Positions 10,885 through 51,597 of a stretch of DNA of 64,000 nt are shown piece after piece. Source of the stretch: an uncultured Chthonomonas sp. (GTDB lineage: Bacteria; Armatimonadota; Chthonomonadetes; Chthonomonadales; CAJBBX01). Numbering within the stretch: the first letter of the stretch is position 1; each line of letters starts with the position of its first letter. The position numbers were made by a program, and so were the translations under genes. The DNA lies in contig CAISJD010000011.1 of NCBI GenBank assembly GCA_903885605.1, positions 1-64,000 of the forward strand. Direction: 5' to 3'. The notes under the pieces are model-generated. The model had not been told where the DNA came from. It was given only the letters and a program-made list of their open reading frames with translations, and searched no databases.

Positions 10885-11490
10885 CTAGGCGGCGATGGGC
10901 CTTACGGTAGCACGACGACGAGCGGCAGGCCGGCCGGTGAGCGCGCTCCGCATGATGACCCGGGCTCGGTGAAGCCTGGAGCGGATGGTGCCCACCGCGC
11001 ATCCGAGCACCTCCGCCGCCTCGTCGTAGGACATCCCCTCAATATCGGTAAGGAGAACGGTCTGCCTGAACACCGAGGGCAGGTTGTTCAGCGCCGATTG
11101 GATGCGCTCGTCCATCACGCCCCGCATGAGGATGCGCGAGGGATCTGCCTCTTCATCGGGGATCTCACTAAAGAGCGAATCGCCGTCATTGCCCTCGTAG
11201 GGAGTATCCAGCGAAAGCGGCGCCTGCTTGGGCCGGGCTCGTAGCCGATCTACGAAGAGGTTGGCCACAATGCGGAAGAGCCAGCGGTCGAACGGCCTGC
11301 CTGGATCGTACCTGTCAAACGCGCGGAACGCCCTGACGAACGCCTCCTGCGTGAGGTCCTCGGCGTCTTCCTTGTTGCCGGAAAGCCTATAGGCGAACGA
11401 GTAGGCCTTGCGGTAGTGCTCCTGCATCAGGCGGTTGAAGAACACCGCGGACGTGCGCTGGACCCCGGTGTCGCAGGCGGTAGTGCTCAT
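10885..11490 (-). CDS. RNA polymerase sigma factor, ECF (sigma-70 family)
   Basis: The 201-residue protein has region 2 (LMQEHYRKAYSFAYRLSGNKEDAEDLTQEAFVRAF with FDRWLFRIVANLFVD) and region 4 (LPSVFRQTVLLTDIEGMSYDEAAEVLGCAVGTIRSRLHRAR). Regions 1 and 3 are missing, as in ECF factors. The track begins it at 11748, but ATG 11490 has AGGAGG six bases upstream and starts just before region 2. No anti-sigma factor gene is next to it. Its own promoter is of the housekeeping type, not an ECF-type autoregulated promoter. Confidence 0.93.
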   Translation of the reverse strand: MSTTACDTGVQRTSAVFFNRLMQEHYRKAYSFAYRLSGNKEDAEDLTQEAFVRAFRAFDRYDPGRPFDRWLFRIVANLFVDRLRARPKQAPLSLDTPYEGNDGDSLFSEIPDEEADPSRILMRGVMDERIQSALNNLPSVFRQTVLLTDIEGMSYDEAAEVLGCAVGTIRSRLHRARVIMRSALTGRPAARRRATVRPIAA

Positions 11491-11579
11491 GGTGCGCCTC
11501 CTTTTCAGGATGTCGGCTCGCCCATCCCAGGGGCGACGCCTAGAGTGGCAGAACCGGCTGGTGCCACCGGCAGTATTGA

Positions 11580-11592
11580 TTAGTTGGACTAA
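11580..11592. promoter_or_regulatory. Perfect inverted repeat at the sigma-factor transcription start
   Basis: TTAGT-TGG-ACTAA is a perfect 5-bp inverted repeat with a 3-base centre, located where transcription from the adjacent promoter should begin. A repressor site or a small mRNA 5' stem are both possible. Confidence 0.35.
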
Positions 11593-11593
11593 G

Positions 11594-11622
11594 AGTATAC
11601 GGGCGCCGCCGGTCGCTGTCAA
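11594..11622 (-). promoter_or_regulatory. Sigma70-type promoter of the ECF sigma factor gene
   Basis: On the minus strand TTGACA (11617-11622), a 17-base spacer and TATACT (11594-11599) form a near-consensus promoter about 100 bases upstream of the ATG. Confidence 0.8.
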
Positions 11623-11693
11623 CAGGTCGTCGAGCTTTCTCGATGGATCAGGCCGCGTTGTTCGCCGGGGAGTGAACCGGCACCTCCGGCGCG

Positions 11694-11723
11694 TTGACGG
11701 CTTGCCCGGCATGGGCGTAGAAT
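11694..11723 (+). promoter_or_regulatory. Promoter of the UroD-like gene
   Basis: TTGACG, an 18-base spacer and TAGAAT end about 43 bases before the ATG at 11767. Confidence 0.6.
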
Positions 11724-11766
11724 ACAGAAGCGGGGCCGAGCCGCGCACCCACCATAGGAGCTCCCA

Positions 11767-12726
11767 ATGCCGTCACTCGACGATCGTTACCGTGCCATGC
11801 TGTTCGAGACCCCGGAGTGCATCCCTGTGAGCGTCGGCATCCTGCCGGCGGCGTGGATGAAGTACCGGGAGGAGCTTGAGGCCATCACGGCCAGGCATCC
11901 GGCGCTCTTCGGGCAGTCGGGCTCACGCGACTTCGACGCGGTTGGCGGGACCTACGTGGCCGGCGATCACGTGGATGCCTGGGGATGTGTCTGGCAGAAC
12001 ATCCGCACCGGGTGCGAATCGATCGTGACGGGCCACCCCGTGGCCCGGCGAGAGGATGTGCGCTCCCTGCACATGCCGACGACTGACATCGGCTTCCCTC
12101 ACGGCTTCATGTACCTGCGCCTGCAGGACCTGCGCGGCTTTGAGGAGCTCATGGTTGACTTCGCCGAGGAGCCCGAGGAGCTGGGCATGCTGGTCGACCT
12201 CGTCCTCCAGTACAACCTGCGCCAGGTAGCCCGCCACCTGCCTGCGATCCAGGCCGAAGGACAGATCATCGGCTTCGGCGACGACCTGGGGATGCAGTTG
12301 TCGCTGCCCATGAGCCCGGCGAAGTGGCGCAAGTACCTCAAGCCCTGTTTTGAAGCCATCTACAGGCCCTACCGCGACGCCGGGCACTACGTGTATATGC
12401 ACACTGACGGCCACATATGGGAGATTATCCCGGATCTCGCCGAGTGCGGCGTCAACGTGGTGAACCCGCAGGTGCGGGCCAACGGCCTCGACAACCTGGC
12501 CCGCGTCTGCAAGGGCAAGGTCTGTGTTTCGCTGGATCTGGACAGGCAGCTCTTTCCCTTCTGCACTCCCGCAGAGATCGACGCGCACGTCCGCGAGTCG
12601 GTCAAGACGCTGGGGAGCAAGCAGGGCGGCCTGTGGCTGGTTGCCGAGATCGGCGACGATGTGCCGCTGGAGAACTGCGAGGCCATCTTCACGGCGCTGG
12701 AGCGCTACCGCGGCTACTTCAGTTGA
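11767..12726 (+). CDS. Uroporphyrinogen decarboxylase-superfamily protein (methyltransferase-like)
   Basis: A 319-residue TIM-barrel protein of the UroD/MtaA/CmuA superfamily. Visible pieces include GFMYLRLQDLRGFEELMVDFAEEPE, GFGDDLGMQLSLPMSPAKWRKYLKP and YVYMHTDGHIWEIIPDLAECGVNVVNP, the last being the family's usual barrel segment. The haem-type enzyme is unlikely because no other haem genes are near, and such proteins are very abundant in glycan-degrading bacteria. Members of this superfamily can move methyl groups on corrinoids, but the substrate here is unknown. A second paralogue lies at 33.2-34.2 kb. Confidence 0.8.
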   Translation: MPSLDDRYRAMLFETPECIPVSVGILPAAWMKYREELEAITARHPALFGQSGSRDFDAVGGTYVAGDHVDAWGCVWQNIRTGCESIVTGHPVARREDVRSLHMPTTDIGFPHGFMYLRLQDLRGFEELMVDFAEEPEELGMLVDLVLQYNLRQVARHLPAIQAEGQIIGFGDDLGMQLSLPMSPAKWRKYLKPCFEAIYRPYRDAGHYVYMHTDGHIWEIIPDLAECGVNVVNPQVRANGLDNLARVCKGKVCVSLDLDRQLFPFCTPAEIDAHVRESVKTLGSKQGGLWLVAEIGDDVPLENCEAIFTALERYRGYFS

Positions 12727-12763
12727 GGGGCGCGGGGCGGTCGGGCTGAGGAGGTAGGGGACC

Positions 12764-14041
12764 ATGTGGGCGCAGCTGAAGACGGCCATGCATCCAGACG
12801 CCGTCCGCTTGATCATCGTGCTCTTCCTGTCGTTCCTCATCGGCCTGGAGCGCGAGGAGCACCAGTCGCAGGAGAAGGGCTACAGTTTCGGCGGCGTCCG
12901 CACGTTCCCGCTGATCGGCATCCTGGGGTTCGGCGTCGCGCTCATTTCGGTGGGGCAGGTGATGCCGATCGCCATCGGCCTGGCGGTGCTCGCCTCGTTC
13001 CTGGTGCCTTCGTACCTGCACAAGATGAAGGGCGATCCGTGCGCCGGCATCACCACGGAGGTCTCAGCCCTGGGCACCTACGTGGTGGGCGTCCTGGTCC
13101 AGCAAGACCAGTATTGGACCGCCACCGCCATGGTGGTGGTGAGCCTCTTCTTGCTGGAGCTGAAGTCGGGGCTGGAGGGATTGGCGCGGCGCGTGTCGGC
13201 GGCAGACATCGTCACGTTCACCAAGTTCCTGCTCGTGGCCGCGGTGATCCTTCCCGTTGTCCCCAACCAGCCTGTGTCGCAGTTCCGCATCAACCCGCTC
13301 ACGGTCTGGTATGTGGTGGTGGCGGTGAGCCTCATCTCCTATGCGGGCTACCTGCTGCAGCGGGCCATAGGCGGACGCGGCGGTTTCGTCGCCGGCGCGC
13401 TGGTGGGCGGCGCATACTCCTCGACGGCGGCAACCGTTGCGATGGCGCGGGCCGCTTCCACGGGCGGGGCCGGCGGGTCCCAACTGGCCGGGGGCGTCCT
13501 CATGGCCTCTGCCATGGCGCTTCCGCGGTGGCTGATCCTCGTGGCGCTCGCGTCGCCGCCGCTGGCCGCCAGGCTGGCGCCATGGATGCTGGGCATCATG
13601 GTTCTCTCCTGCGCGGCGGGCCTCACGCTGGCGGTGCGGTCGCCGGAGCCTGCCGATGCGGGTGACCGCGTCGGCCCGAGGGGCAATCCGCTTGAGCTGC
13701 GCGTCGCCTTCGCGTTCGCGGCGCTGTTCGTGGCGACGCTGGTGATCACCCAGCTGGTGTCGGGCGCGCTGGGCAGCAACGGGGTGCTCGGCCTCGCCGC
13801 CGTCGTAGGGGTCACGGACATCACGCCCTTTGTGGTGGGCATCGCGGGAAGCGCGGCGACGGGGCTGGCCCTGCACACGGCGGCGGCGGCGATCCTCATC
13901 GCAGGGGCCTCCAACGCGGCGGCCAAGGGGTTCTACGCGCTGGGTTTCGCGGGGCGAGCCGCGGGGCGGGCCGCATGCGCCTGGCAACTGGGCATGGCGT
14001 CCCTTCTGCTGGCAGCCGCGTGGCTCGCCTCGGCGTCCTGA
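12764..14041 (+). CDS. MgtC/SapB and DUF4010 domain membrane protein
   Basis: Polytopic protein of 425 residues. The N-terminal third has the MgtC/SapB signature LSFLIGLEREEHQSQ and GVRTFPLIGILGFG; the C-terminal two-thirds is DUF4010 (LISYAGYLLQRAIGGRGGFVAGALVGGAYSSTAATVAMA, and SNAAAKGFYALGFAGR at the end). About 12 hydrophobic segments can be read. MgtC proteins affect magnesium stress and ATP synthase in pathogens, but the function of the DUF4010 form is not established. It follows the UroD-like gene by 37 bases and may share its transcript. Confidence 0.88.
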   Translation: MWAQLKTAMHPDAVRLIIVLFLSFLIGLEREEHQSQEKGYSFGGVRTFPLIGILGFGVALISVGQVMPIAIGLAVLASFLVPSYLHKMKGDPCAGITTEVSALGTYVVGVLVQQDQYWTATAMVVVSLFLLELKSGLEGLARRVSAADIVTFTKFLLVAAVILPVVPNQPVSQFRINPLTVWYVVVAVSLISYAGYLLQRAIGGRGGFVAGALVGGAYSSTAATVAMARAASTGGAGGSQLAGGVLMASAMALPRWLILVALASPPLAARLAPWMLGIMVLSCAAGLTLAVRSPEPADAGDRVGPRGNPLELRVAFAFAALFVATLVITQLVSGALGSNGVLGLAAVVGVTDITPFVVGIAGSAATGLALHTAAAAILIAGASNAAAKGFYALGFAGRAAGRAACAWQLGMASLLLAAAWLASAS

Positions 14042-37604: not shown

Positions 37605-37838
37605 ATGGATGTCAGACTTGCCCGGTGGGACAACAGCCTGGCCGTCCGGGTGCCTCGGTCCCTCGTCGCGGAGCTTGGCCTCGTTGGCGGATCGCCCTTG
37701 GATGTTTCGTTTGAGGCGGGGGCGCTTGTGTTCCGTCCGTCTGATCCCGCCGTGGAATTGGAACGGCTCGTGCAGGCGATCACGCCCTATGACCGGCATG
37801 ACCTGGAGGCGGCTTACGATGACTTTCCGACGGGCTAA
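37605..37838 (+). CDS. Orphan MazE/AbrB-like antitoxin
   Basis: A 77-residue swapped-hairpin DNA-binding protein. It has the MazE pattern DVRLARWDNSLAVRVPRSLVAELGLVGG and ends with an acidic tail (ITPYDRHDLEAAYDDFPTG), which in antitoxins binds the toxin. TAGGAGGAAGCGCC before ATG is a strong ribosome binding site. No PIN, PemK or other toxin follows; instead the next gene overlaps it by 20 bases. It is divergent from the sugar operon, so it could act as a local regulator or be a remnant of a toxin-antitoxin pair. Confidence 0.85.
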   Translation: MDVRLARWDNSLAVRVPRSLVAELGLVGGSPLDVSFEAGALVFRPSDPAVELERLVQAITPYDRHDLEAAYDDFPTG

Positions 37839-39816
37839 GCTTGCTTGCGTCGTTCTCGTGGCCCTGGCTTCGTGGCCGCCGCCGCCGGTCGCGGCTCTGC
37901 AGGGCGATGGTAGGCTCGCGCCGGCTTTCCCCGCCGCTGTCTACCCGCCGGCCAGATCCGGCGCCGCGCCGGTGTCCGAGGTGGCGTTCCGCGAGACGCC
38001 TGAGACGCTGCGCTACGGGTTCAACGTGCCGTTCCCGGCCGCCCGCCGGCGGTCGTTCGCCGTGGATGACTACGGCGCCCGACCCGACGGCAGGACCGAC
38101 TGCACACCCGCCTTCGCTCGGGCCTGGGCCGAGGCGCGCCGTTGCTCGGCGCCTGCGGAACTGCTCTTTCGGCGCACGGGGCGCTACCTGTTCCGTCCCG
38201 ACCCGGCGCTGGGATCCGATGAGTTAGCGATCCTCAACCTGCGCAAGGCGGTCGGCCTGCGGGTTCGCGGACAGGGGCCGGGCACGGTGCTTGTCATGGC
38301 GGACCCGAAGCTAGGCGGCCTCCAGGTGACCGACAGCTCGTGCGTCATGCTCCAGGGCTTCACCGTGGACTACAACCCGCTCCCGTTCTCCCAGGGATCG
38401 GTCACGCAAGTGGACCCGGCCGCGGGCTGGTGTCGCATGCGGTCCGATGCGGGGTACCCCTCTCCGATCGAAACGGCGGCGCGCATCCCCGGCTTCCACG
38501 GCGGATATGTGCTCCAGCAGGCGGACGGCTACCGGTGGTTGCCGATCGGAGGGGTGACGCCACGAACGCCGCCGTCTGCCGAGGGCGCTGAGACCCGCTT
38601 CGATGTGGGCGGCGACGCGGCACGGACGCTCAAGGCCGGCGACCGGTTCGTCTTCGTGGGGCGGCGCATCGCCCAGACGGCCCTCAGCGCCTGCTTCACG
38701 CGGTCGTTCTATGTCAAGGATGTGATCGTCCATGCCTCTCCGACCTGCGGGCTCCTGCTGAACAACGTGGACGGCGCCTGCATCGACGGCTACGCCGACG
38801 AGATTCCAGCCGGGTCGGATCGCTTGCTGGCCACCAACGCCGACGGGCTCTACGTGCATAACGTGCGCGGCGGCATCACCATCCGGAACTGCCGGTTCAT
38901 GGGACAGGGCGATGACTGCATCAACCTCCACACCACCGCATGGGGTAGTCAGTGGTTCCGCCCCGTGGGCGACCGGGATATCGCAATCGCATCGCCGGTC
39001 GACCTCCGCAAGGGCGACACGATCGAGATCATGGACCCGACCGTGGGTAGGATCAAGGGCTCGATCCGCGTCTTGTCTGTGGCTTCCAATGCAGCCCACG
39101 AGGTCACCCGCTGTCGCCTGGCCTCCCCACTGAGCAGCGTCGGCTACGACCCCAAGACCGACGCCGCCTACGTGACCGACCTGGCCGGCTCAAACTTCAA
39201 GATCGTGCGCTGCCGTTTCGGGCAGAACCGTAGCCGCTGTATGCTCATCCAGGCGCGGCATGGCCTGATTCAGGCCAACACCATCGAGAACGCAGAGGGT
39301 TACGGCGTGCTGCTGGGCTACGGCGGCACGGCATGGGCCGAGGGCATCATTCCCGCAGATGTTACGATCCGGGATAATGTCTTTCGCAACGTCACCGGGG
39401 CAGGATTGGCGCCGACCATCGAGGCCGGCGACGGCTCGTCATTCAGGAACCTCCGCCGGATCGTGGTGGAGGGGAACCGGTTCGTGAACCCGAGGAAGAT
39501 GGCGATCTCGGCCGCGGGGGTAGATGGGCTCACGATCTCCGGCAACCGCGTCTCCACCGAGCCGGGCCGCCGCAACACGTGGAACCATCCCCAATGGTAT
39601 CCCGTGGACTGCAGCATCATCCTGCGCAACTGCTCCGGCGTCCTGGTGGATCGTCTCGATCTGGTCGACCGTTCCATCCGTGAGGCGGCGATCACCATCG
39701 GCGCCGACTGCGCGCCGGGCACTGCAGGCGTGACCCTCCGCGGCATCCGTGCCGACCTGGCGCCCGGCGTCCCGGTCGTGAGGGATGATCGGCCGGTGAC
39801 GCCTGGCCGGGGATAG
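37819..39816 (+). CDS. Secreted right-handed beta-helix protein (GH110/GH28-like)
   Basis: A 665-residue exported protein. Signal peptide: FRRAKLACVVLVALASWPPPPVAA. The body is a parallel beta-helix with the opening FAVDDYGARPDGRTDCTPAFARAW typical of pectate-lyase-like enzymes, HASPTCGLLLNNVDGA and the conserved GITIRNCRFMGQGDDCINLHTTAWG, which resembles the catalytic region of GH110 alpha-galactosidases and GH28 (Asp-Asp pair). Repeat coils such as GLTISGNRVS and VTIRDNVFRNV follow. ATG 37819 overlaps the antitoxin gene by 20 bases and gives the signal peptide; the upstream track start 37609 does not. Confidence 0.85.
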   Translation: MTFRRAKLACVVLVALASWPPPPVAALQGDGRLAPAFPAAVYPPARSGAAPVSEVAFRETPETLRYGFNVPFPAARRRSFAVDDYGARPDGRTDCTPAFARAWAEARRCSAPAELLFRRTGRYLFRPDPALGSDELAILNLRKAVGLRVRGQGPGTVLVMADPKLGGLQVTDSSCVMLQGFTVDYNPLPFSQGSVTQVDPAAGWCRMRSDAGYPSPIETAARIPGFHGGYVLQQADGYRWLPIGGVTPRTPPSAEGAETRFDVGGDAARTLKAGDRFVFVGRRIAQTALSACFTRSFYVKDVIVHASPTCGLLLNNVDGACIDGYADEIPAGSDRLLATNADGLYVHNVRGGITIRNCRFMGQGDDCINLHTTAWGSQWFRPVGDRDIAIASPVDLRKGDTIEIMDPTVGRIKGSIRVLSVASNAAHEVTRCRLASPLSSVGYDPKTDAAYVTDLAGSNFKIVRCRFGQNRSRCMLIQARHGLIQANTIENAEGYGVLLGYGGTAWAEGIIPADVTIRDNVFRNVTGAGLAPTIEAGDGSSFRNLRRIVVEGNRFVNPRKMAISAAGVDGLTISGNRVSTEPGRRNTWNHPQWYPVDCSIILRNCSGVLVDRLDLVDRSIREAAITIGADCAPGTAGVTLRGIRADLAPGVPVVRDDRPVTPGRG

Positions 39817-40123: not shown

Positions 40124-40277
40124 CTAGGCCCTGCTCAGGAAGTCGCCCAGCACAAAGATGCCGCGACTGCGGTCATGCCGAGTGGCCTTCGTGCTGCGAC
40201 CTGCGCCGTCACTCCTATGCCCCTTCCGTGAAGCTGGGCATGCGCCATGGCCTATGGTATCCGTAGGCAGGAGTCCC

Positions 40278-40318: not shown

Positions 40319-43300
40319 ATGATGTTCAGGTCCGCATGGTCGGTTCTAGGCGTTCTCGCGGCGGCGGCTCTGGCGGCGCCGGCGGTCGTGGCTTCTATGG
40401 GCGACGATGGGCTGTCGCCCGCCGAGGCGTTGGCGCGCAAGAGCGGCACGCCGCTGGCGGCGCAGCGCTCGTCGGCCTCCGTGGCTCCGTTCGCGGGCTA
40501 CTCAGCGCGCCCCTTCACCTTCGAGTGCCTGGCGCAGGTACGCTCGCGATCAGGTTTCAACATCCTCGTCGCCAACGAGGATAAGCCGTCGGCCACCCAC
40601 TGGGAGCTCTTCACCTGGCCCGATACCGGCGCCCTGACGGCCTATCTGCCCGGCTTCTCTCCGGACCATGTGCGATCGCAGCGCGACATCGGAGACGGGC
40701 GGTGGCACACGATCGGGTTCGTGCTGGAGGACCGCCGCGCGCGCCTCTACGTGGACGGCAAGCTGGAGGCCGACCAGGCCGTTGTGCCGCCCATCCGACC
40801 CGGCGCCGCGGGTCCGCTGGCGTTCGGATCGCTGGTGAACGGCGAGATCGGCTGCAACGGCCTGATCCTGCGCCCCCGGCTCTCGGCCGGGGTTCGCGAG
40901 ATCGCCGGCGTCCCTGCGGAGCCCTGGCAGGCCGATGCCGCCACCATCGGCCTCTGGGACTTCGGCGCGGCCATTGACGGCGGCTTCGCGGACCTCTCCG
41001 CCAACCGCCGCCCGGCCCTCTCCAAGGCCACGCAGGAGAACGGGCTCTGGCCCAACAACTTCCTCGGCGGCGAGACGTCCGAGTTCCGCCCCATGCCGCC
41101 GCGCGTCGCCGTGGCCGCCCAGCGCGCTCTGCTGGGGGGCGCCGTCCGACGCCTGGGCCTGAAGACGGTCTCGGCCGACCGGGTTCGCGACGGCGTCCTG
41201 CGCGACTGGCTGCTCCAGTACCGCCTCAACGGCTCCCGCGAGTACCCCGAGGCCGTCTGGGTCAAACCCGCCGATCTGGCCGGGCAGACGCTGGACGCGC
41301 AGGCCCTCCCGCAGGCGGGCGACACTGGGCCCTTCTCCGTGGCCCTGCGGCGCACGCGGGCGCTGATGAGGAACTTGGCGCGGCCGGGCGGCATTCCACT
41401 GGCCCACGAGGCCGCCGACCTGGACCTCATCGCCGCCGAGCATCGCCGTGCTATGGCTGCCACGGGTAGCGATGAAGACCAGGGCCTCTACCTGGCGCTC
41501 TGCGCCGTGCGCCGCCGCGTGGCCCTGGCCAATCCGCTGCTCGGCGATGCGCCCCTCCTCTTCGCCGCGCGCGGCACCTATGAGGGCTCCGTGCGCTCCA
41601 ACCCGGGCACCAGCGACGTCCAGGGCGGCCACTTCGCCACCCAGTACTTCGGCTTCAACGCCTGGCCTGGCGGCGGGCTCTATCTGGTGAAGGACTTGAA
41701 GTCGCCGACACCGCACATCGTGGACGTGGTCGCCTCATCGGTGGTGCAGAACGGGCGCCTGAAGGGCCGGAAGCTCGCGGGCGGCTCCTTCGCCACGCCG
41801 GACCTCTCGTTCGACGGCAAGACCGTCGTCTTCGCCTGGACGGCCAACAAGGAGCACCGCTGGGCCTTCAACCGCGAGACCTGCTTCCATCTCTTCCGCG
41901 TGAACGTGGACGGCTCGAACCTGATACAGCTCACGGACGGCCCCTTCGATGACTTCGACCCCTGTTGGCTGCCCGACGGCCGGATCGCTTTCGTTTCCGA
42001 ACGGCGCGGCGGCTACATCCGGTGCTTCGGCAACGTGCCCGTGCGGAACTTCACCCTCTTCAGCATCCGGCCCGACGGCACAGGCCTCCTGCCGCTGAGC
42101 TACTTCGAGACTGACGAGTGGAACCCCAGCGTCTCGAACGACGGGCGGCTCTTGTACACGCGGTGGGACTACACCGACCGCGAGAACTGCCTGGGCACGC
42201 GGCTCTGGATCGCCGGCGCCGACGGAACCGACGCCCGGTCGCCGCACGGCAACTACCCGCTTCCCTTCAGCACGCTGGACGGCAACCAGCCCTGGAAGGT
42301 GGTGAACGGCGCTCCGTTGCGTGACAGCCGGCTGGGTTCGCCGCTCGTCGAGATGGGCATGCGCGCCATTCCCGGTTCCCGCAAGATCATCGTCACCGCC
42401 GCTCCGCACCACGGCCAGGCCTTCGGCACGCTCTGCCTGCTGGACCTTTCCGTACCCGATGACGGCCACATGTCGCAGGTCAAGCGCATCACGCCCGACG
42501 AGCTCTTCCCGGAGAGCGAACTGCCCGGCCGACGCCACTACAAGTACGGCACGCCATGGCCGCTGAGCGAGGATTTCTACCTCTGCAACATCTGGGAGGA
42601 CCTCTTCCTGGTGGACCGCTACGGCAATCGGGAACTGCTCTGCGAGATCGACCTGCTGCCCTGTCCGCAGGACGAGCGGCTCAGGCTGGTCGACCCCATC
42701 CCCGTGCGGCAACGGGTCCGTCCGCCGGCGGTTGGGCCGCGCACCCGACCGTTAGCCCCGGCCAAGGCGGCCGCCAAGGCCACCGTGGCCGTGATGAACG
42801 TCTACGACGCCGACCTGCCGCTACCCAAGGGCGCGAAGGTGAAGTGGCTCCGCGTGACGCAGAACATCCTCAAAGAGAACCACCTCATGGGCGCTCCGAT
42901 GATCGGCTACGAGCGCGAGAACACACCGCGCATCCCCCTGGGCGTCGTGCCGGTAGAGGCCGACGGCAGCGTCTACTTTGAGGCGCCGGTAGCCAAGCAG
43001 CTTATCTTCCAGGCGCTGGACGAGAACTATATGGCCCTGCACTCCATGCGGGCCTGCGCATCGGTTCAGCCGGGTGAGCAATTGCGCTGCCAGGGGTGCC
43101 ACGAGAGCCCGCGCAAGGCGCCCAAGCCCTACGGCGTCCCAGCGGCGCTGAGGCGCGCACCCTCCAAGTTGCGGCCGGAGCTGGGCAGCGTGGAGCCGAT
43201 CAGCTACTATCGCCAGATCGCGCCCATCGTCGATCGCTCCTGCGCGCCCTGTCACGCCCGCACCGGCAAGGGGCCGGCGGATATGCGCTACGACGCGCTG

Positions 43301-44479
43301 CGCGACAAGGCGTTCTGGTTCTCCGGCGCCATGTGGACGGATATGAATGGCCCCTACAGCGGCACACACGGCGGCTCGCGCACCATTCCGGGTCGCTTCG
43401 GTGCCCGCGCCTCCATCCTCGGCAAGGCGCTACTCGATGAGACCCACCGCAAGGCGGTGAGTGAGCCGGACCGCCACGCCTTCATCCTCTGGCTCGACTC
43501 CAACTCCCTGCGGCTCGGCGCCTACACCGACGAGGAGCGGCAACTGAAGGGTGATCTCGTGTGGCCCGTGCTGGACGTGGACCCGGCCAACCCGCAGGGC
43601 GTGGAGGGCGCCGGCGCGCCTTTGCGCCGTAACTTCTGGCACGAAAACCACTTCGGACCGTACAAGCTGCTGGTCGCCGAGCATGCCCACGACCGCGTCG
43701 TCCTGATGGACGAGGCCGGGGCCGTTAAGCGTGAGTGGAAGGTGCCGCACCCGCAGGATGCCTGGCTGCTGCCCAACGGCAACCTCATCACTACCCACGT
43801 CCGCGGCGTCCGCGAACTGCGCCCCGACGGCTCGCTGGTCTGGGAGTACAAGGTGGAGGCGCCCAACGAGGTGCCGTCGCTGCAGGTGCTGCCCAACGGC
43901 AACGCGCTCATCGGGGTGGTGGGCCTCTGCCGCCTTCTGGAGGTGGAGAGGCCGTCGGGCCGCATCGTCCACACGGTCCAGCTGTCGACGTCGGTTGCAG
44001 AGCCGCACGCCCAGTTCCGTATGTGCCGTCAGACGCCCGAGGGTACCTATCTGGTCCCGTTCACCGCTGAGGGGATCGTGCGCGAGGTGGACCGGGGCGG
44101 TAAGGTCCTACGCGAGTGGCCGCCGGCGCCCATGCCCGTCTGCGCCCTTCGCTTGCCCAACGGCAACACGCTCATCAGCGCCGCCGGCGCCGTCACCGAG
44201 TACGCCCCGGACCTGGCCATCGTTTGGCGTGTGGACAAGGAGTGGCTGGCCGACATCGACGTGGCCGTCCCGGCGGGCATCCAGCGTCTACCCAACGGCA
44301 ACACAGTGATATGCAACTGGAACACGCAGGGCGCCGGGGGCAAGGACACGGCGCACATCATCGAGGTGACGCCGGACAAGCGCGTGGTCTGGCAGGTGGT
44401 CGATCCCGCCCTGGGCCAGGTGGCGCAGTGCCAGCTACTCGACAACCGCTGGCTGCCGCGGACGGACCCGATCCGGTAG
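40319..44479 (+). CDS. Secreted LamG / PD40 / dihaem cytochrome c / propeller fusion (hydrazine synthase alpha-like)
   Basis: A 1386-residue exported protein. Signal peptide: FRSAWSVLGVLAAAALAAPAVVAS. Domains: LamG-like sandwich (about 35-220: FTFECLAQVRSRSGFNILV, GRWHTIGFVLEDRRARLYVDGK); TolB/PD40 propeller (about 430-620: FDGKTVVFAWTANKEHRW, DGSNLIQLTDGPFDDFDPCWLPDGRIAFVSERRGG, WNPSVSNDGRLLYTRWDY); two haem-c motifs CQGCH (924-928) and CAPCH (975-979); and a second propeller (about 1090-1386) with repeated LPNGN blocks. The PD40 and haem middle part resembles the hydrazine synthase alpha-like family of uncharacterised planctomycetal proteins. A periplasmic electron-transfer or oxidative glycan role is inferred; there is no evidence for anammox. 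Confidence 0.85.
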   Translation: MMFRSAWSVLGVLAAAALAAPAVVASMGDDGLSPAEALARKSGTPLAAQRSSASVAPFAGYSARPFTFECLAQVRSRSGFNILVANEDKPSATHWELFTWPDTGALTAYLPGFSPDHVRSQRDIGDGRWHTIGFVLEDRRARLYVDGKLEADQAVVPPIRPGAAGPLAFGSLVNGEIGCNGLILRPRLSAGVREIAGVPAEPWQADAATIGLWDFGAAIDGGFADLSANRRPALSKATQENGLWPNNFLGGETSEFRPMPPRVAVAAQRALLGGAVRRLGLKTVSADRVRDGVLRDWLLQYRLNGSREYPEAVWVKPADLAGQTLDAQALPQAGDTGPFSVALRRTRALMRNLARPGGIPLAHEAADLDLIAAEHRRAMAATGSDEDQGLYLALCAVRRRVALANPLLGDAPLLFAARGTYEGSVRSNPGTSDVQGGHFATQYFGFNAWPGGGLYLVKDLKSPTPHIVDVVASSVVQNGRLKGRKLAGGSFATPDLSFDGKTVVFAWTANKEHRWAFNRETCFHLFRVNVDGSNLIQLTDGPFDDFDPCWLPDGRIAFVSERRGGYIRCFGNVPVRNFTLFSIRPDGTGLLPLSYFETDEWNPSVSNDGRLLYTRWDYTDRENCLGTRLWIAGADGTDARSPHGNYPLPFSTLDGNQPWKVVNGAPLRDSRLGSPLVEMGMRAIPGSRKIIVTAAPHHGQAFGTLCLLDLSVPDDGHMSQVKRITPDELFPESELPGRRHYKYGTPWPLSEDFYLCNIWEDLFLVDRYGNRELLCEIDLLPCPQDERLRLVDPIPVRQRVRPPAVGPRTRPLAPAKAAAKATVAVMNVYDADLPLPKGAKVKWLRVTQNILKENHLMGAPMIGYERENTPRIPLGVVPVEADGSVYFEAPVAKQLIFQALDENYMALHSMRACASVQPGEQLRCQGCHESPRKAPKPYGVPAALRRAPSKLRPELGSVEPISYYRQIAPIVDRSCAPCHARTGKGPADMRYDALRDKAFWFSGAMWTDMNGPYSGTHGGSRTIPGRFGARASILGKALLDETHRKAVSEPDRHAFILWLDSNSLRLGAYTDEERQLKGDLVWPVLDVDPANPQGVEGAGAPLRRNFWHENHFGPYKLLVAEHAHDRVVLMDEAGAVKREWKVPHPQDAWLLPNGNLITTHVRGVRELRPDGSLVWEYKVEAPNEVPSLQVLPNGNALIGVVGLCRLLEVERPSGRIVHTVQLSTSVAEPHAQFRMCRQTPEGTYLVPFTAEGIVREVDRGGKVLREWPPAPMPVCALRLPNGNTLISAAGAVTEYAPDLAIVWRVDKEWLADIDVAVPAGIQRLPNGNTVICNWNTQGAGGKDTAHIIEVTPDKRVVWQVVDPALGQVAQCQLLDNRWLPRTDPIR

Positions 44480-44557: not shown

Positions 44558-47500
44558 TCAGTTGATGGTCAGGGTGCCGGTGGCTGATGAGCCTGCGAAG
44601 GCGGCGTCGGCCTCGAAGGTGGCTGTGAACGGCCACGCCCCCGCGCTACCTGCCGGAGCGGTGAACGAGGCCCGCGCCGACCCATCGGCGCCGGTGGTCA
44701 CCGACGTCCGGGCCAACAACCCCGGAGCCTCGAAGACCACCCGCTTGGATGCGAGGGGCGCCAACGCTCCGTTTGGATGCTGTCGGTAGAGGATCGCGAC
44801 CAGGGTGGCAGTAGTGCCGGCCTTCGCCGTCCGGTTGGTAGTCCAAAGGTAGGTCTTGGCGTATGCCAGGACCGTGAAGGCGACCGCTGAGGTCGATGGA
44901 GCCCACGCGGCGTCCCCGGCGAACGCGGTGGTCTGGGTATGAGCCCCGATGCTGAGCCCGTCGGGCACGATCCATGCCAGCCGGGCGATGCCGTTGCTCG
45001 CGGTCACCGCTGAACCCAGCGCGCTGCCGTCCAGGGCGAACGCCAGCGACTTACCGCCCACGCCCGTGTACCCAGATGACCCGCTGAAGAGGTATGCGCT
45101 CAGGGTCACCTGATCGCCTGCCGCGCCCGACGCCGGCATCCCTGCGACCCTGGTGCGGGCTGCCACGGTCAGCTTGCCGGCGCCTGAGCTTGCGGCGTAC
45201 TGGCTATCGCCGGTGAAGTCGGCGGTGATGGCCTGCTCACCCAGGGAAGCAGCGGCAGGTATTGCGTAGGCTCGCGTCGCCTTGCCCGATGCGTCCGTCA
45301 GGCCGCCGCCTGCGGCCGTCCCGTTGACGCGGAATGCCACGGATGCGCCGGAAACGGGGCCGGCCGCAGAGGTAAGCGTCGCGGCGAGCATGACGGTGTC
45401 GCCTGCGGCGCCTGCCGCACTCGCGGCCACCAGCGTTGTCGCCATGGTCGTCACCGTCAGGACGCCTGAGCCCTCAGCCGGCGACCATTCAGACCCGGAG
45501 CCGGCGAAAGACGCGCCGATGGGGTAGCCGGCGCTCTGCGCAGTGGCCGGGATGGCGTATGCGCACCTAGCGGCGCCCGAGGCGTCCGTGGAGGCCGATC
45601 CCGCCGCGACACCCGACACTGTGAACGAAACGACAACAGCCGGGGCCGGTGCGCCGAAGGATGAGTCGGTGAGGAGAGCGGTAAGGTCAACCGTACGCCC
45701 CGCCGGAGACGAGAGGCTCGCCACCGTGAGGCCCGAAGCCCGGCTATAGACGCGCACGCTCGCCGATGCACCGGCGGCCACGAGATCGGCGCCGCCCACG
45801 AAGGTGACGGTGAGCGGCTTCACCCCTGCGGCCTCGCTTGCCGGAATGAGCCACGACGTGGCGGCTTGCCCCGTGGCGTCGGTGGTGGCTGATGCCGTCC
45901 ATCCTGCCACGCGGAAGGTGAGCGTCTTGCCGGCGACGGCCGCACCGTCGCACTGTCGCGTCAACCGGGCTGTGAGCGCGACGGATTTGCCGACACATCC
46001 CCACGTGTCTGAAGCCTCGATGGCTCCAGCAGGCACGATGCTCCAGGCCCTGGAGCCGGTCGATGGGTTGGTTGTCGAGTTGCCGGCGAACTGGGCGGCA
46101 ACACTCACGGGCCCGACGGCGGCGCCGGAGATCGTCACCGCCCTGGCCGCTCGTCCCGACAGGTTGGTGACCGCACTTCCGACACTCGTGCCGGCCAGGC
46201 TGAACCGGAGGGTTGCCGCGGCCAGCGCACGCAACGAGCCTGCAGGACCGATGCGGTAGAGGTAGGCAGTCAGGGTGGCCGGCGCGCCCGCGTTGGCGTT
46301 GCCCGACGGGACCCAGACCAGGCTGTCGGCCTTGGCGTAGACGGTCAGGGTGGCGGTGGCCGACGAGGAGGCGTAGATGCCGTCGCCGGCGAACGAGGCA
46401 TCAATGGCCTGCGTGGCGTCGGCTTCGGCAGGCGGGATGGCGTAGCTGAGCGCCGCCCGGCCGTCGCCGTCCGTGGGGCCGGCCTTCGCGAGGGCGGTGC
46501 CGTCGATGCCGAACGTCAAGGTCCTGTAGGCGATCCCGGCCCCGTCCTCCTCGCGGATCAGGTACGCCGCCAATGTGGCCTTGGCGCCGGCCCAGGCCGT
46601 GGCGTCGGGCAGGACGATCAGGCTGGCGTCCGCGGGACGCGTCCGGAGGCGCGCCACGAACGCATCGCCGTTGCCGGCCGGCGTTGTCTGTGCTGCCCAT
46701 GGAGTGGTCGGGAAGGCGCCAGACTGGCTGACGCCCGCGACGACGGCGTCTCCGCCGGGCGCCGGCGCCACGGCGTAGGCGGCGTCGAGGCCGAGGCCCC
46801 CCAGGTAGGTCGCGTGCTGCAGGGCGCCCGCCTCGTCCAACAGGGCCACGAACGCGTCGCCGCTACCGGCCGCTCCGGGCATCACGGCGTCGGCGGTGGT
46901 GGGAAGGTCGCTTGAGGCCGTGGCGCCGCAGATGGCCGCCATGCCCGACGTGAGGACCGCTACACCGTTGCCTGTGTCGTTGCCCGAGCCGCCGATGTAG
47001 CTGCCATAGAGCAGGGCGCCAACGTCCGGCGGTAGGTGCGCGATGAATGCGTCGCGGGTCGCAGGCGCCGCGGACGCATTGGACGACTGGAGGCAGCCGG
47101 AGGTGGTCGGCAGGTCGGCGGAGGTTGCGCTTCCGGTGATCCAGATCGAGCCGTCTGCTGCCAACGCCAGGCCCGTGGCCTCATCCATGCCTGAACCGCC
47201 CAGCAGGCTCGCGCCGGAGAGGACCGCGCAGTCGGCTCCGAGCCGGGCGATGAAGGCGTCCGAAACGCCCTTGAGCGTGGCCTGGAGGGCGCCTGCGGCG
47301 GCGGGGAAGTCGGCGGAGGAGGTGCGGCCCGCCACGACGATGCGCCCCTGGCTGTCAACAGCCACCCCACCCGCCGAGTCGCCTCCGGCGCCTCCGAGGT
47401 AGGTGGACGCGAGCAGCGTCGCGCCGGCGGCTGAGAGCCTCGTGACGCAGGCGTCGTACTCGTTGTACAGGAAGTCGGACCTGTTGGCCGTCTGGAACGC

Positions 47501-48730
47501 CGCCGGGGTGACAGGGTAATCGGTCGATGAGGTCGATCCGGCCACCACGACGGCGCCCGAAGGATCGATCGCCACCGAGTTCATCTGCTCGTCGGAGGAC
47601 CCGCCGAGGTAGGTGCCGAAGCCCAGGGCCGAGCCCCCTGCGCTGAGCTTGACGACGAAACCGTCGGTGGCGCCGCTGGGGCCCGTCGTGCGCAGGGCGC
47701 CGGCCGTGGTGGGCAGGTCCGGCGAGTCGGTGACACCGGTTGCGTAGGCGCAACCATCGGCGTCGATCGCCAGCCCTAGGATGCGGTCCGTTCCCGTTCC
47801 GCCATAGTACGTGGCATATACGATGCCGGCGCCGTCAGGTGTCAGCTTGGCGACGAAGCCGTCCTGGCAGCCTCCGGCCGACCGTTCGGGCTGCATGCCC
47901 TCGGTGGTGCCGGGGAGGTTGGCGGAGTAGGTCCAACCGGCGACGTAGGTGTTGCCCGCCGCATCGGTCGCGACGGCGCGGGCCTCATCCTGGGCCGACC
48001 CGCCGAGCAGTGATGAGTACTCCAGCGCAGGGTCGATGACGAGGGTGGCGCGCGGATCATGCCGACCGACCCGGAAGGCGACCTTCGTCTGCCCGGCGCC
48101 CGCCGGCGTCAGGACATAGCGGCACGGGACGGGCGTCCGTCTGCCGGCGCGCTCGGCATAGGCGACCGGCTTGCGCCAGTTGAGGGCGCCCGCGCTTGTG
48201 GCCAGCGTTAAGCCGCCTGCGCGCGTGAGGATGGCGTCGCCGCCCGTCAGGTGGAGGGCAGCGCGGCGGGCGGCGGCTCCGGGGCGCACGACAAAGTCGT
48301 ACTCAAGCGTGCGGCCGCCGTCGCGGAAGACGAGGTCTATGCCCGGCGCCACGTTCCTCCGCCGGGCCCGTGCGAAGAGCGGCGCCCCGGTGACCCAGCG
48401 CGTTCGGTCGGCGCCGACCAGGCTGTTGACTGCTCCGCCGGTGGCCTGTTCGCCGCACCATGTGCCGTTTGCGGCGGCTCCCGGCACCGCCATGCGCACG
48501 GTGGCGGGAACCTGCCCGGGTCGGCCGAAGACGAGGGTCATATCGGCGGCCCGCAGCAGGAGCGCGTACCCGCGTCCCCGAGCGGCCATCTGCACATCCG
48601 GCGTCGCCTGGCCAAGGTTCTTCTCGAACAGCACGGGCGGGCCCGCGTGCGCCCGGCGCGGCGCCGAGCCGCCTGCCAGGGCTCCCGCAGCAGCGCCGAG
48701 GGTGAGGAGCAGTCGTGATCTGTTCATCAT
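44558..48730 (-). CDS. Giant SBBP-repeat and Ig-like-repeat surface protein
   Basis: A 1390-residue secreted protein. Signal peptide: RLLLTLGAAAGALAGGSAPRRAHA. The N-terminal DUF7948-like region (FEKNLGQATPDVQMAARGRGYALLL) leads into about nine SBBP repeats (YSSLLGGSAQDEARAVATDAAGNTYVAGWT, then similar blocks with VDSQGRIVVAGRTSSADFP). After residue about 690 there are seven bacterial Ig-like repeats, each with GATLTAYL- or SFAGD-type strands, ending in ATGTLTIN. No sortase or PEP-CTERM signal is visible. Probable adhesin or structural surface protein. ATG 48730 follows AAGGAACC; the track start 49168 is inside the SGNH gene. Confidence 0.88.
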   Translation of the reverse strand: MMNRSRLLLTLGAAAGALAGGSAPRRAHAGPPVLFEKNLGQATPDVQMAARGRGYALLLRAADMTLVFGRPGQVPATVRMAVPGAAANGTWCGEQATGGAVNSLVGADRTRWVTGAPLFARARRRNVAPGIDLVFRDGGRTLEYDFVVRPGAAARRAALHLTGGDAILTRAGGLTLATSAGALNWRKPVAYAERAGRRTPVPCRYVLTPAGAGQTKVAFRVGRHDPRATLVIDPALEYSSLLGGSAQDEARAVATDAAGNTYVAGWTYSANLPGTTEGMQPERSAGGCQDGFVAKLTPDGAGIVYATYYGGTGTDRILGLAIDADGCAYATGVTDSPDLPTTAGALRTTGPSGATDGFVVKLSAGGSALGFGTYLGGSSDEQMNSVAIDPSGAVVVAGSTSSTDYPVTPAAFQTANRSDFLYNEYDACVTRLSAAGATLLASTYLGGAGGDSAGGVAVDSQGRIVVAGRTSSADFPAAAGALQATLKGVSDAFIARLGADCAVLSGASLLGGSGMDEATGLALAADGSIWITGSATSADLPTTSGCLQSSNASAAPATRDAFIAHLPPDVGALLYGSYIGGSGNDTGNGVAVLTSGMAAICGATASSDLPTTADAVMPGAAGSGDAFVALLDEAGALQHATYLGGLGLDAAYAVAPAPGGDAVVAGVSQSGAFPTTPWAAQTTPAGNGDAFVARLRTRPADASLIVLPDATAWAGAKATLAAYLIREEDGAGIAYRTLTFGIDGTALAKAGPTDGDGRAALSYAIPPAEADATQAIDASFAGDGIYASSSATATLTVYAKADSLVWVPSGNANAGAPATLTAYLYRIGPAGSLRALAAATLRFSLAGTSVGSAVTNLSGRAARAVTISGAAVGPVSVAAQFAGNSTTNPSTGSRAWSIVPAGAIEASDTWGCVGKSVALTARLTRQCDGAAVAGKTLTFRVAGWTASATTDATGQAATSWLIPASEAAGVKPLTVTFVGGADLVAAGASASVRVYSRASGLTVASLSSPAGRTVDLTALLTDSSFGAPAPAVVVSFTVSGVAAGSASTDASGAARCAYAIPATAQSAGYPIGASFAGSGSEWSPAEGSGVLTVTTMATTLVAASAAGAAGDTVMLAATLTSAAGPVSGASVAFRVNGTAAGGGLTDASGKATRAYAIPAAASLGEQAITADFTGDSQYAASSGAGKLTVAARTRVAGMPASGAAGDQVTLSAYLFSGSSGYTGVGGKSLAFALDGSALGSAVTASNGIARLAWIVPDGLSIGAHTQTTAFAGDAAWAPSTSAVAFTVLAYAKTYLWTTNRTAKAGTTATLVAILYRQHPNGALAPLASKRVVFEAPGLLARTSVTTGADGSARASFTAPAGSAGAWPFTATFEADAAFAGSSATGTLTIN

Positions 48731-48758
48731 GGTTCCTTCGTGCCCGACGCGCCGGCGA

Positions 48759-50110: not shown

Positions 50111-51115
50111 CTAGTCGAGGGCGAAGAACTCCAGGGTCCTGCCCGTGTTGTCCTTGCCTGCGGTCAGCACGAGGAAGCCCCAGGTCTTGCCGTCCTTGGG
50201 ATCGAGGCCGTAGGCGACGTCGAGCACCGTGCCTGCCAGCTTGGGGCTGGTCCAGATCGGCTTCAGCGAGCCGGCGGCGATGGCTGCCATATCGGTGACC
50301 ACGATCTTGGCGTCAGCGCCCTCACCCATGACGACCCACGCGGAGAGGGTATTGTCCGCCCGCGCATCGACCAGGCCGAAGATGCCTGTCTTGATCAGGT
50401 CGCTAGGCCAGCCCAGGGCAGCCAGGGCCTCCACTGGCAACCTTGCCGTCAGCCAGGTATAGGTTCCCGCGCCCTGGTCGGGCATCACCATCGAGGGGCC
50501 GTACCCGAGGCCGTCGGCGGCGTCCGGTTTCACGGTCCAGACGGACGGCTGGCCGGCGCCGTCGAAGAAGAAGGCGCACTCCACTCCGTCGGTGAAGCGG
50601 ACGCTGCCGGTGATGGCCTCCACGGAGGGTGACGCGATCTTGGTGTAGGCGTCGCCCTTCTTCACGAAGACGGCGCCTGGCACGACGATGGAACCGCCGG
50701 CACTGGCGCCTGAGAAGGAGCCGGCGACGAACTGGGAGGCCTTGGGGCCCAGGTCAACCGTGGTATCGGTTACCGCCTTGCCGTCCGCAATCTTGTGGAG
50801 CGTCAGCGTCGTGCCCGCACCCAAGGTGGCGACGCGCATGCTGTGCTTGCCGTCGGCGTCGACCAGGGCGGCCCGGCGGGCGTCGGCCGGCGCCTCGACG
50901 CGCCACGAGGAGACGTAGGCCGGCGGCAGTCCTGCCAGGCTGAGTTTGTGGGCCTTGTAGTAGGCGCCCTTGGTGTTCAGCTTCACGCTGTCAGCGGAGA
51001 CGTGGCAGTAGGTGCACGCCTTCTTCTCTTTGGCTGCGTACTTGGCAGTCGCCCAGGCGGGCGTTGTAGCGGCTAGGCTTGCCGCAACCAGTGCGGCCGC
51101 TGCCCATCGTACCAT
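50111..51115 (-). CDS. Exported protein with a single haem-c motif
   Basis: A 334-residue protein with signal peptide (VRWAAAALVAASLAATTPAWA) and CTYCH at residues 34-38 in KKACTYCHVSADSVKLNTKGAYY, which looks like a c-type haem site right after the signal. The remaining 290 residues form a repetitive beta-rich region with no recognised family (GSIVVPGAVFVKKGDAY, LDVAYGLDPKDGKTWGF). It may be a periplasmic electron carrier or sensor. ATG 51115 follows GAGGAGAAGCC; the track start 51154 adds an improbable leader. Operon partner of the CoA-binding gene 35 bases upstream. Confidence 0.8.
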   Translation of the reverse strand: MVRWAAAALVAASLAATTPAWATAKYAAKEKKACTYCHVSADSVKLNTKGAYYKAHKLSLAGLPPAYVSSWRVEAPADARRAALVDADGKHSMRVATLGAGTTLTLHKIADGKAVTDTTVDLGPKASQFVAGSFSGASAGGSIVVPGAVFVKKGDAYTKIASPSVEAITGSVRFTDGVECAFFFDGAGQPSVWTVKPDAADGLGYGPSMVMPDQGAGTYTWLTARLPVEALAALGWPSDLIKTGIFGLVDARADNTLSAWVVMGEGADAKIVVTDMAAIAAGSLKPIWTSPKLAGTVLDVAYGLDPKDGKTWGFLVLTAGKDNTGRTLEFFALD

Positions 51116-51150
51116 TGGCTTCTCCTCGACCTCTCGGGTCTGGGTCGTGT

Positions 51151-51597
51151 TCACTTACGGAAACGAGTGGCTACCGCCACCATGACGCAGGGGCCTCCGT
51201 AGACGGCCTGCATGCCGTGGGCGCGGGCCAGGTTGACCGCGGCTTCGGATTCCGAGCCGGGCTGCATCCAGACGATGCGGATGCCCGCATCTCCCGCCGC
51301 GGGCAGGGCGTGCTCGGTGGCGGCGGGCGGCGTCACTGTGACCAGCAAGTCGGGCTTCACTGGCAGGCAGTCGAGCTGAGGGTAGACCGGGTCGCCGTCA
51401 ATCTCGTCTGCATTGGGGTTCACGGCGTAGACCTGGTACCCGGCGCGCTTCATGGAGGTGTAGACCTTGTGCCCGTACTTCGCCGCGTCTCGCGACGCGC
51501 CGAGCACGGCGACGGAGCGGGCGCCCAGCGCCGCGTCGATCACGTGCCTGAACGTCGCCGCGGTCTCATTGCCGGGCCGTGTTGCATCTTCGCGCAT
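51151..51597 (-). CDS. CoA-binding domain protein (YccU-like)
   Basis: A 148-residue single CoA-binding Rossmann domain: ARSVAVLGASRDAAKYGHKVYTSMKRAGYQVYAVNP, YPQLDCLPVKPDLLVTVTPPA, GIRIVWMQPGSESEAAVNLARAHGMQAVYGGPCVMV. Short members of this family are widespread with unknown cellular role. The final Cys in GGPCVMV is the usual family end. It is divergent from rnpB. Confidence 0.9.
   Translation of the reverse strand: MREDATRPGNETAATFRHVIDAALGARSVAVLGASRDAAKYGHKVYTSMKRAGYQVYAVNPNADEIDGDPVYPQLDCLPVKPDLLVTVTPPAATEHALPAAGDAGIRIVWMQPGSESEAAVNLARAHGMQAVYGGPCVMVAVATRFRK

Follow-up and report, generated by a model that had tools for sequence, protein, structure and literature searches.

The window analysed here, a stretch of 64,000 nucleotides from contig CAISJD010000011.1 of an uncultured Chthonomonas species (Armatimonadota), carries the gene of a large protein, P0001, which is homologous to the alpha subunit of hydrazine synthase (HZS-alpha, HzsA) and combines its dihaem core with a LamG domain and an additional propeller. 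An open frame of 1410 codons starts at position 40247, and translation from the ATG at 40319 gives a product of 1386 amino acids, a 92% identical orthologue of which is encoded in a Chthonomonas metagenome-assembled genome. The gene and its features, all on the + strand, are as follows.

40319-44479 (+): whole gene of P0001, 1386 amino acids (open frame and Pfam), encoding a secreted protein of the order LamG, PD40 propeller, HZS_alpha, cytochrome c, Mala_s_1-like propeller.
40319-40393 (+): signal-peptide-like N-terminus, residues 1-25, MMFRSAWSVLGVLAAAALAAPAVVA, judged from sequence.
40505-40870 (+): LamG / concanavalin-A-like domain, residues 63-184 (Laminin_G_3 PF13385, 1.6e-9, over cut-off).
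41441-42724 (+): region collinear with the N-terminal propeller of HzsA, residues about 375-802 (hhalign; PD40; Foldseek to 5C2V and TolB).
42878-43105 (+): hydrazine synthase alpha middle domain, residues 854-929 (PF18582 HZS_alpha, 2.2e-16, over cut-off).
43088-43102 (+): CQGCH, haem 1 site, residues 924-928, equivalent to haem alpha-I of HzsA, with no Tyr at +4 (invariant, 50/50).
43241-43255 (+): CAPCH, haem 2 site, residues 975-979, equivalent to haem alpha-II of HzsA (invariant in 50/50 aligned sequences, lost in the G554 orthologue).
43445-43447 (+): His1043, putative distal ligand of haem 2, located 15 residues ahead of WLD as in HzsA (spacing; co-loss in G554).
43772-44320 (+): C-terminal Mala_s_1-like propeller, residues 1152-1334 (PF22701, 7.4e-22; PDB 3NO2, 2.1e-23).

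A sequence-only reading of the locus had described the LamG unit, the PD40 propeller, CxxCH motifs at residues 924 and 975 and a propeller with LPNGN repeats, and each of these was recovered at its position by Pfam matches over cut-off or by motif search. PF18582 matches P0001 with 60.6 bits (cut-off 26.6), PD40 is matched at residues 537-566 (3.9e-8, over cut-off), and LPNGN occurs four times (residues 1151, 1191, 1279 and 1324). The motifs TRWDYxDR and APHHG also lie in the propeller region collinear with HzsA. The Pfam match to cytochrome CBB3 around CxxCH975 is below cut-off (0.046), and in 20,000 shuffles of P0001 one CxxCH arose in 0.7% and two in none.

Both the homology of P0001 to HZS-alpha and its domain architecture are close to certain. 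A profile built from 19 family members aligned in hhalign with a profile of 11 genuine HzsA sequences gathered from planctomycete genomes at 99.6% probability (E 1.8e-23) over 583 collinear columns, which run from P0001 residue 375 onwards against nearly the full length of HzsA, the identity between HzsA and P0001 being about 23%. When PDB was searched with the family profile, HzsA (5C2V_A) was the top match (E 1.1e-15), while phmmer with the single P0001 sequence did not find HzsA in PDB, so that a profile is required. Two AlphaFold models, for which nine relatives served as input and which had a mean predicted local distance difference test (pLDDT) score of 58 in both runs, each gave 5C2V as the top PDB match in Foldseek (3.7e-16 and 4.1e-17), and 3NO2 matched the C-terminal propeller in Foldseek as well as in sequence. 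Since haem geometry is unreadable from models of such low confidence, the fold matches alone were used. The proposal made from the letters alone, that PD40 followed by middle haem-c segments is the plan of HzsA, thus holds: HMMER places the HZS_alpha middle domain over cut-off instead of finding no haem-domain match, and the models resemble HzsA, with 3NO2 for the C-terminal part, and not one single propeller.

Regarding the haem sites, the core alignment comprised 50 sequences (18 paralogues from this genome, 27 other homologues and five HzsA), and both CxxCH motifs are present in all of them, including 45/45 non-HzsA rows, with CxGCH[ED] around haem 1 invariant in all non-HzsA homologues, which come from several phyla. 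H1043 precedes W1058-L-D by fifteen residues, the same spacing as for the distal His772 of HzsA, with a His at 15 or 16 residues in most homologues; MAFFT places H1043 and the HzsA histidine one column apart, and their equivalence rests on spacing. In the orthologue of G554, a Kiritimatiellota-group genome (L122 / L118) outside the core alignment, neither the second CxxCH nor the corresponding distal His is present any longer, but the beta-gamma neighbour described below is retained; the joint loss is consistent with H1043 as the second ligand of haem 2. His772 was reported to be absent in clade I of the non-anammox HZS-alpha homologues (PMC12758564), and either the present family differs from that clade or the alignments differ by one residue. 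Most homologues conserve the pair H697-H698 of the APHHG motif, which according to the alignment is missing from HzsA. Cytochrome c assembly proteins are encoded in the genome (two matches to PF01578).

The conservation of these sites bears on whether P0001 could be non-catalytic, an adhesion or scaffold molecule made of propellers and LamG, with CxxCH haems that are structural or vestigial. Such a role would suit a protein with three binding-type domains in which Pfam recognised no known catalytic domain, and the G554 orthologue indicates that haem 2 can be lost; however, a haem 1 motif preserved in every non-HzsA homologue together with a haem 2 motif preserved in nearly all is unusual for vestigial sites, and we consider this explanation distinctly unlikely.

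The collinearity with nearly the whole of HzsA might also suggest that P0001 is itself the alpha subunit of a hydrazine synthase, or matches it closely in function and produces hydrazine, but several observations contradict this. P0001 scores 29.7 bits against the NCBIfam HzsA equivalog NF052339, for which the cut-off is 800 and genuine full-length HzsA reaches 1518-1606. Tyr591, the iron ligand of haem alpha-I, is absent (CSGCHxGSYRGR in HzsA versus CQGCHESPRKAP in P0001), and the position of the zinc ligand Cys303 is occupied by Tyr646 in the alignment, although Cys303 is not universal among anammox bacteria either (PMC12758564). HzsA furthermore forms a separate clade in the core tree, with a long branch between it and the rest. 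HzsB, HzsC and HAO are not encoded in the window, where tblastn with these proteins and six beta-gamma-like proteins gave nothing significant, in agreement with the earlier statement that no other hydrazine synthase subunit or anammox gene is present there. By these comparisons hydrazine chemistry is not supported for P0001, and a hydrazine-making function, which in hydrazine synthase starts from hydroxylamine or NO and ammonia, appears extremely improbable. Two other identities were rejected, TolB with 21.4 bits against TIGR02800 (cut-off 343) and the planctomycete-specific cytochromes (PSCyt/PSD) with no match to the Pfam models PSCyt1-3 or PSD1-5 up to E 1.

P0001 is real and well conserved, belongs to the uncharacterised HZS_alpha family and stands out by its architecture. 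A count of homologues in Armatimonadota, which had been proposed as a check, detected PF18582 in 31/251 sampled genomes, with 18 copies in this genome, 18 in each of two congeners and up to 26 in a genome of another family. At least 10 of the 18 paralogues in the present genome bear modules of carbohydrate-binding type (Pfam, over cut-off), namely LamG in P0001, L029, L035 and L041, F5/8C in L034, L040 and L043, NPCBM in L032 and L037, and a PL4 carbohydrate-binding-module (CBM)-like module in L036. An unexpected pairing was seen in L029, L032 and L033, in which the dihaem HZS_alpha core is fused to a C-terminal FGE-sulfatase (formylglycine-generating-enzyme-like) domain, likewise over cut-off. 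In a quick tree of the 50 cores, made without bootstrap, the paralogues of this genome are scattered and are thus old. P0001 and eight relatives with the C-terminal propeller, from Armatimonadota and the Kiritimatiellota group, form one clade (Shimodaira-Hasegawa-like approximate likelihood ratio test, SH-aLRT, 100), to which LamG proteins without the propeller are sister, and the simplest reading of this topology would be a single gain of the propeller. HZS-alpha homologues outside anammox bacteria have already been published; the 18 paralogues, their carbohydrate-binding-type modules and the beta-gamma-like neighbours in the Kiritimatiellota group are new.

These neighbours encode a propeller joined to a dihaem CCP/MauG unit. 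In two Kiritimatiellota-group genomes the beta-gamma-like gene lies a few bases downstream of a full-length orthologue of P0001 (L022, 13760-15574, NF052342 E 1.3e-44; L122 of G554, 11172-13004), and pairs of alpha-like and beta-gamma-like genes also occur in Spirochaetales (L025, L026), G142 and G123. On contig C117 of the present genome a beta-gamma-like gene stands directly upstream of an F5/8C-bearing HZS_alpha paralogue (L040:5454-10219), and in L101 (G142:C14) one beta-gamma-like gene shares 12 kb with three or four HZS_alpha homologues, among them a LamG-type relative of P0001. P0001 might on this account be a subunit of an unknown three-part HZS-like complex with a beta-gamma-like protein, in which the substrate would be a small molecule, perhaps a nitrogen or peroxide compound, and LamG would serve only as an anchor, and co-location of alpha and beta-gamma homologues outside anammox bacteria has been reported (PMC12758564). 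Against such a complex, no beta-gamma-like gene was found near the window copy, in the available flanks of the other propeller-bearing orthologues of Armatimonadota, several of which are on short contigs, or beside L123, the third orthologue of the Kiritimatiellota group. The gene on contig C117 is moreover the single CCP_MauG match in the genome, compared with 18 alpha-like genes, and adjoins another paralogue; the beta-gamma-like partners are also without HzsC's third haem-binding Cys, and at the position of gamma-His144 they carry Trp or a different residue. We consider this arrangement rather unlikely, and because no such gene is near the window copy, P0001 probably works without a beta-gamma-like partner or with one encoded elsewhere.

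The surroundings of the gene include a beta-helix protein upstream:

37609-39816 (+): right-handed beta-helix protein with a glycan-lyase-like fold (PF13229, 2.6e-15).

This neighbour stays linked to the P0001 gene in one further congener (G001). Also upstream are a sugar-type ATP-binding cassette (ABC) transporter, a sulfatase and GFO/IDH/MocA dehydrogenases, with a GDSL hydrolase gene downstream, and such surroundings would fit glycan use. Synteny is kept within the genus only, and around distant orthologues no conserved neighbours were found except the beta-gamma-like genes in some; a pair of sugar ABC-transporter genes near the orthologue L098 was judged too weak and isolated and was not used. 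Convergent with the P0001 gene, positions 44558-48733 of the window (- strand) encode a large secreted protein with DUF7948, an SBBP propeller and Ig repeats (Big_3_5). A protein of 347 amino acids with one CxxCH (CTYCHV) is encoded at 50111-51154 (- strand) and conserved in congeners G001 and G002; it had no convincing match in Pfam, NCBIfam or PDB, and a link to P0001 is not established. A search of PHROGs gave no matches.

LamG units related to that of P0001 (42-44% identity) were found on proteins of the ThuA-LamG-pyrroloquinoline quinone (PQQ) dehydrogenase type in the same order of bacteria, and another belongs to a Gemmataceae protein of the TIM-barrel/HEAT/cytochrome type. These occurrences support the view that LamG tethers redox proteins outside the cell. 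The fusions L073 and L074 from that order are longer than 1300 amino acids and run ThuA, LamG, PQQ dehydrogenase.

Considered together, these data give about an even chance that P0001 is an extracellular, glycan-tethered dihaem protein of redox or electron-transfer function on the HZS-alpha scaffold. The protein would be a secreted c-type redox protein loaded with two haems on the three-domain plan of HzsA (propeller, haem-bearing middle domain, cytochrome c domain), anchored by its N-terminal LamG to a glycan or to the cell surface. The likelier reactive site would be haem 1 of the HZS-alpha middle domain, with ordinary histidine attachment (H928) where HzsA uses tyrosine and zinc, while haem 2, probably bis-histidine (H979 and H1043), may exchange electrons with a partner, and the extra C-terminal propeller could be a platform for docking or substrate binding. 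P0001 would then probably act in extracellular oxidation or electron transfer during the use of polysaccharides. The sequence-only reading had likewise proposed an extracellular redox enzyme acting on or bound to polysaccharide, and that proposal gained indirect support from the LamG, F5/8C, NPCBM and PL4-CBM modules of the paralogues, the LamG of PQQ dehydrogenase-type proteins and the sugar-type neighbours. Several points weigh against glycan-tethered redox function: the sugar-related neighbours are not conserved beside distant orthologues and thus say little about the P0001 gene itself; LamG and F5/8C domains bind proteins too; the AlphaFold models are weak, with most of the haem-2 region below a pLDDT of 50; and reports of enzyme activity or haem content are not known to us for HZS_alpha proteins outside anammox bacteria.

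More speculatively, HZS-alpha-type proteins might make up an extensive, so far unrecognised class of dihaem oxidoreductases, secreted by Armatimonadota and the Planctomycetes-Verrucomicrobia-Chlamydiae (PVC) group and directed at glycans, diversified by swaps of carbohydrate-binding modules, with hydrazine synthase as a derived member whose scaffold was taken over for nitrogen chemistry; we hold this broader view tentatively and regard it as somewhat improbable. To our knowledge, the function of no relative of hydrazine synthase alpha has been established. With as many as 26 copies in one genome and modules of sugar-binding type, this family is a place where ordinary biochemistry could uncover the ancestral chemistry of the scaffold. 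The family of P0001 would also add a class of redox proteins to bacterial glycan use.

Compared with known systems, P0001 shares with HzsA the order of a propeller, an HZS_alpha middle domain with CxxCH and a cytochrome domain with CxxCH, as well as H1043 at the spacing of the distal His of haem alpha-II. It differs in the distance between the haem motifs (51 residues versus 102 in HzsA), in the added LamG and C-terminal propeller, and in lacking the Tyr at H+4, the zinc Cys and adjacent beta and gamma genes. The C-terminal propeller is homologous to the Mala_s_1-like BACCAC_01654 (PDB 3NO2), which is a standalone protein of unknown function, the matched chain being the propeller alone. The non-anammox HZS-alpha homologues of clades I-IV, which lack Tyr591 and Cys303 (Hagglund et al., 2025; PMC12758564), are like P0001 HZS_alpha proteins outside anammox bacteria without these two residues, and P0001 fits that family with its CxGCH-containing HZS_alpha domain, its second CxxCH and the missing Tyr591; the text of that paper names neither Armatimonadota nor LamG, and in contrast to its clade I, P0001 and most relatives studied here have a His at the spacing of His772. 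A parallel case is provided by the PSCyt proteins of Verrucomicrobia with carbohydrate-binding modules, for which a role in carbohydrate use was proposed and the function is likewise unknown (He et al., 2017; PMC5615132). P0001 differs from these in its HZS_alpha core, without a PSCyt or PSD Pfam domain, and resembles them in many paralogues per genome, a c-type haem domain, LamG or NPCBM modules and sulfatase neighbours.

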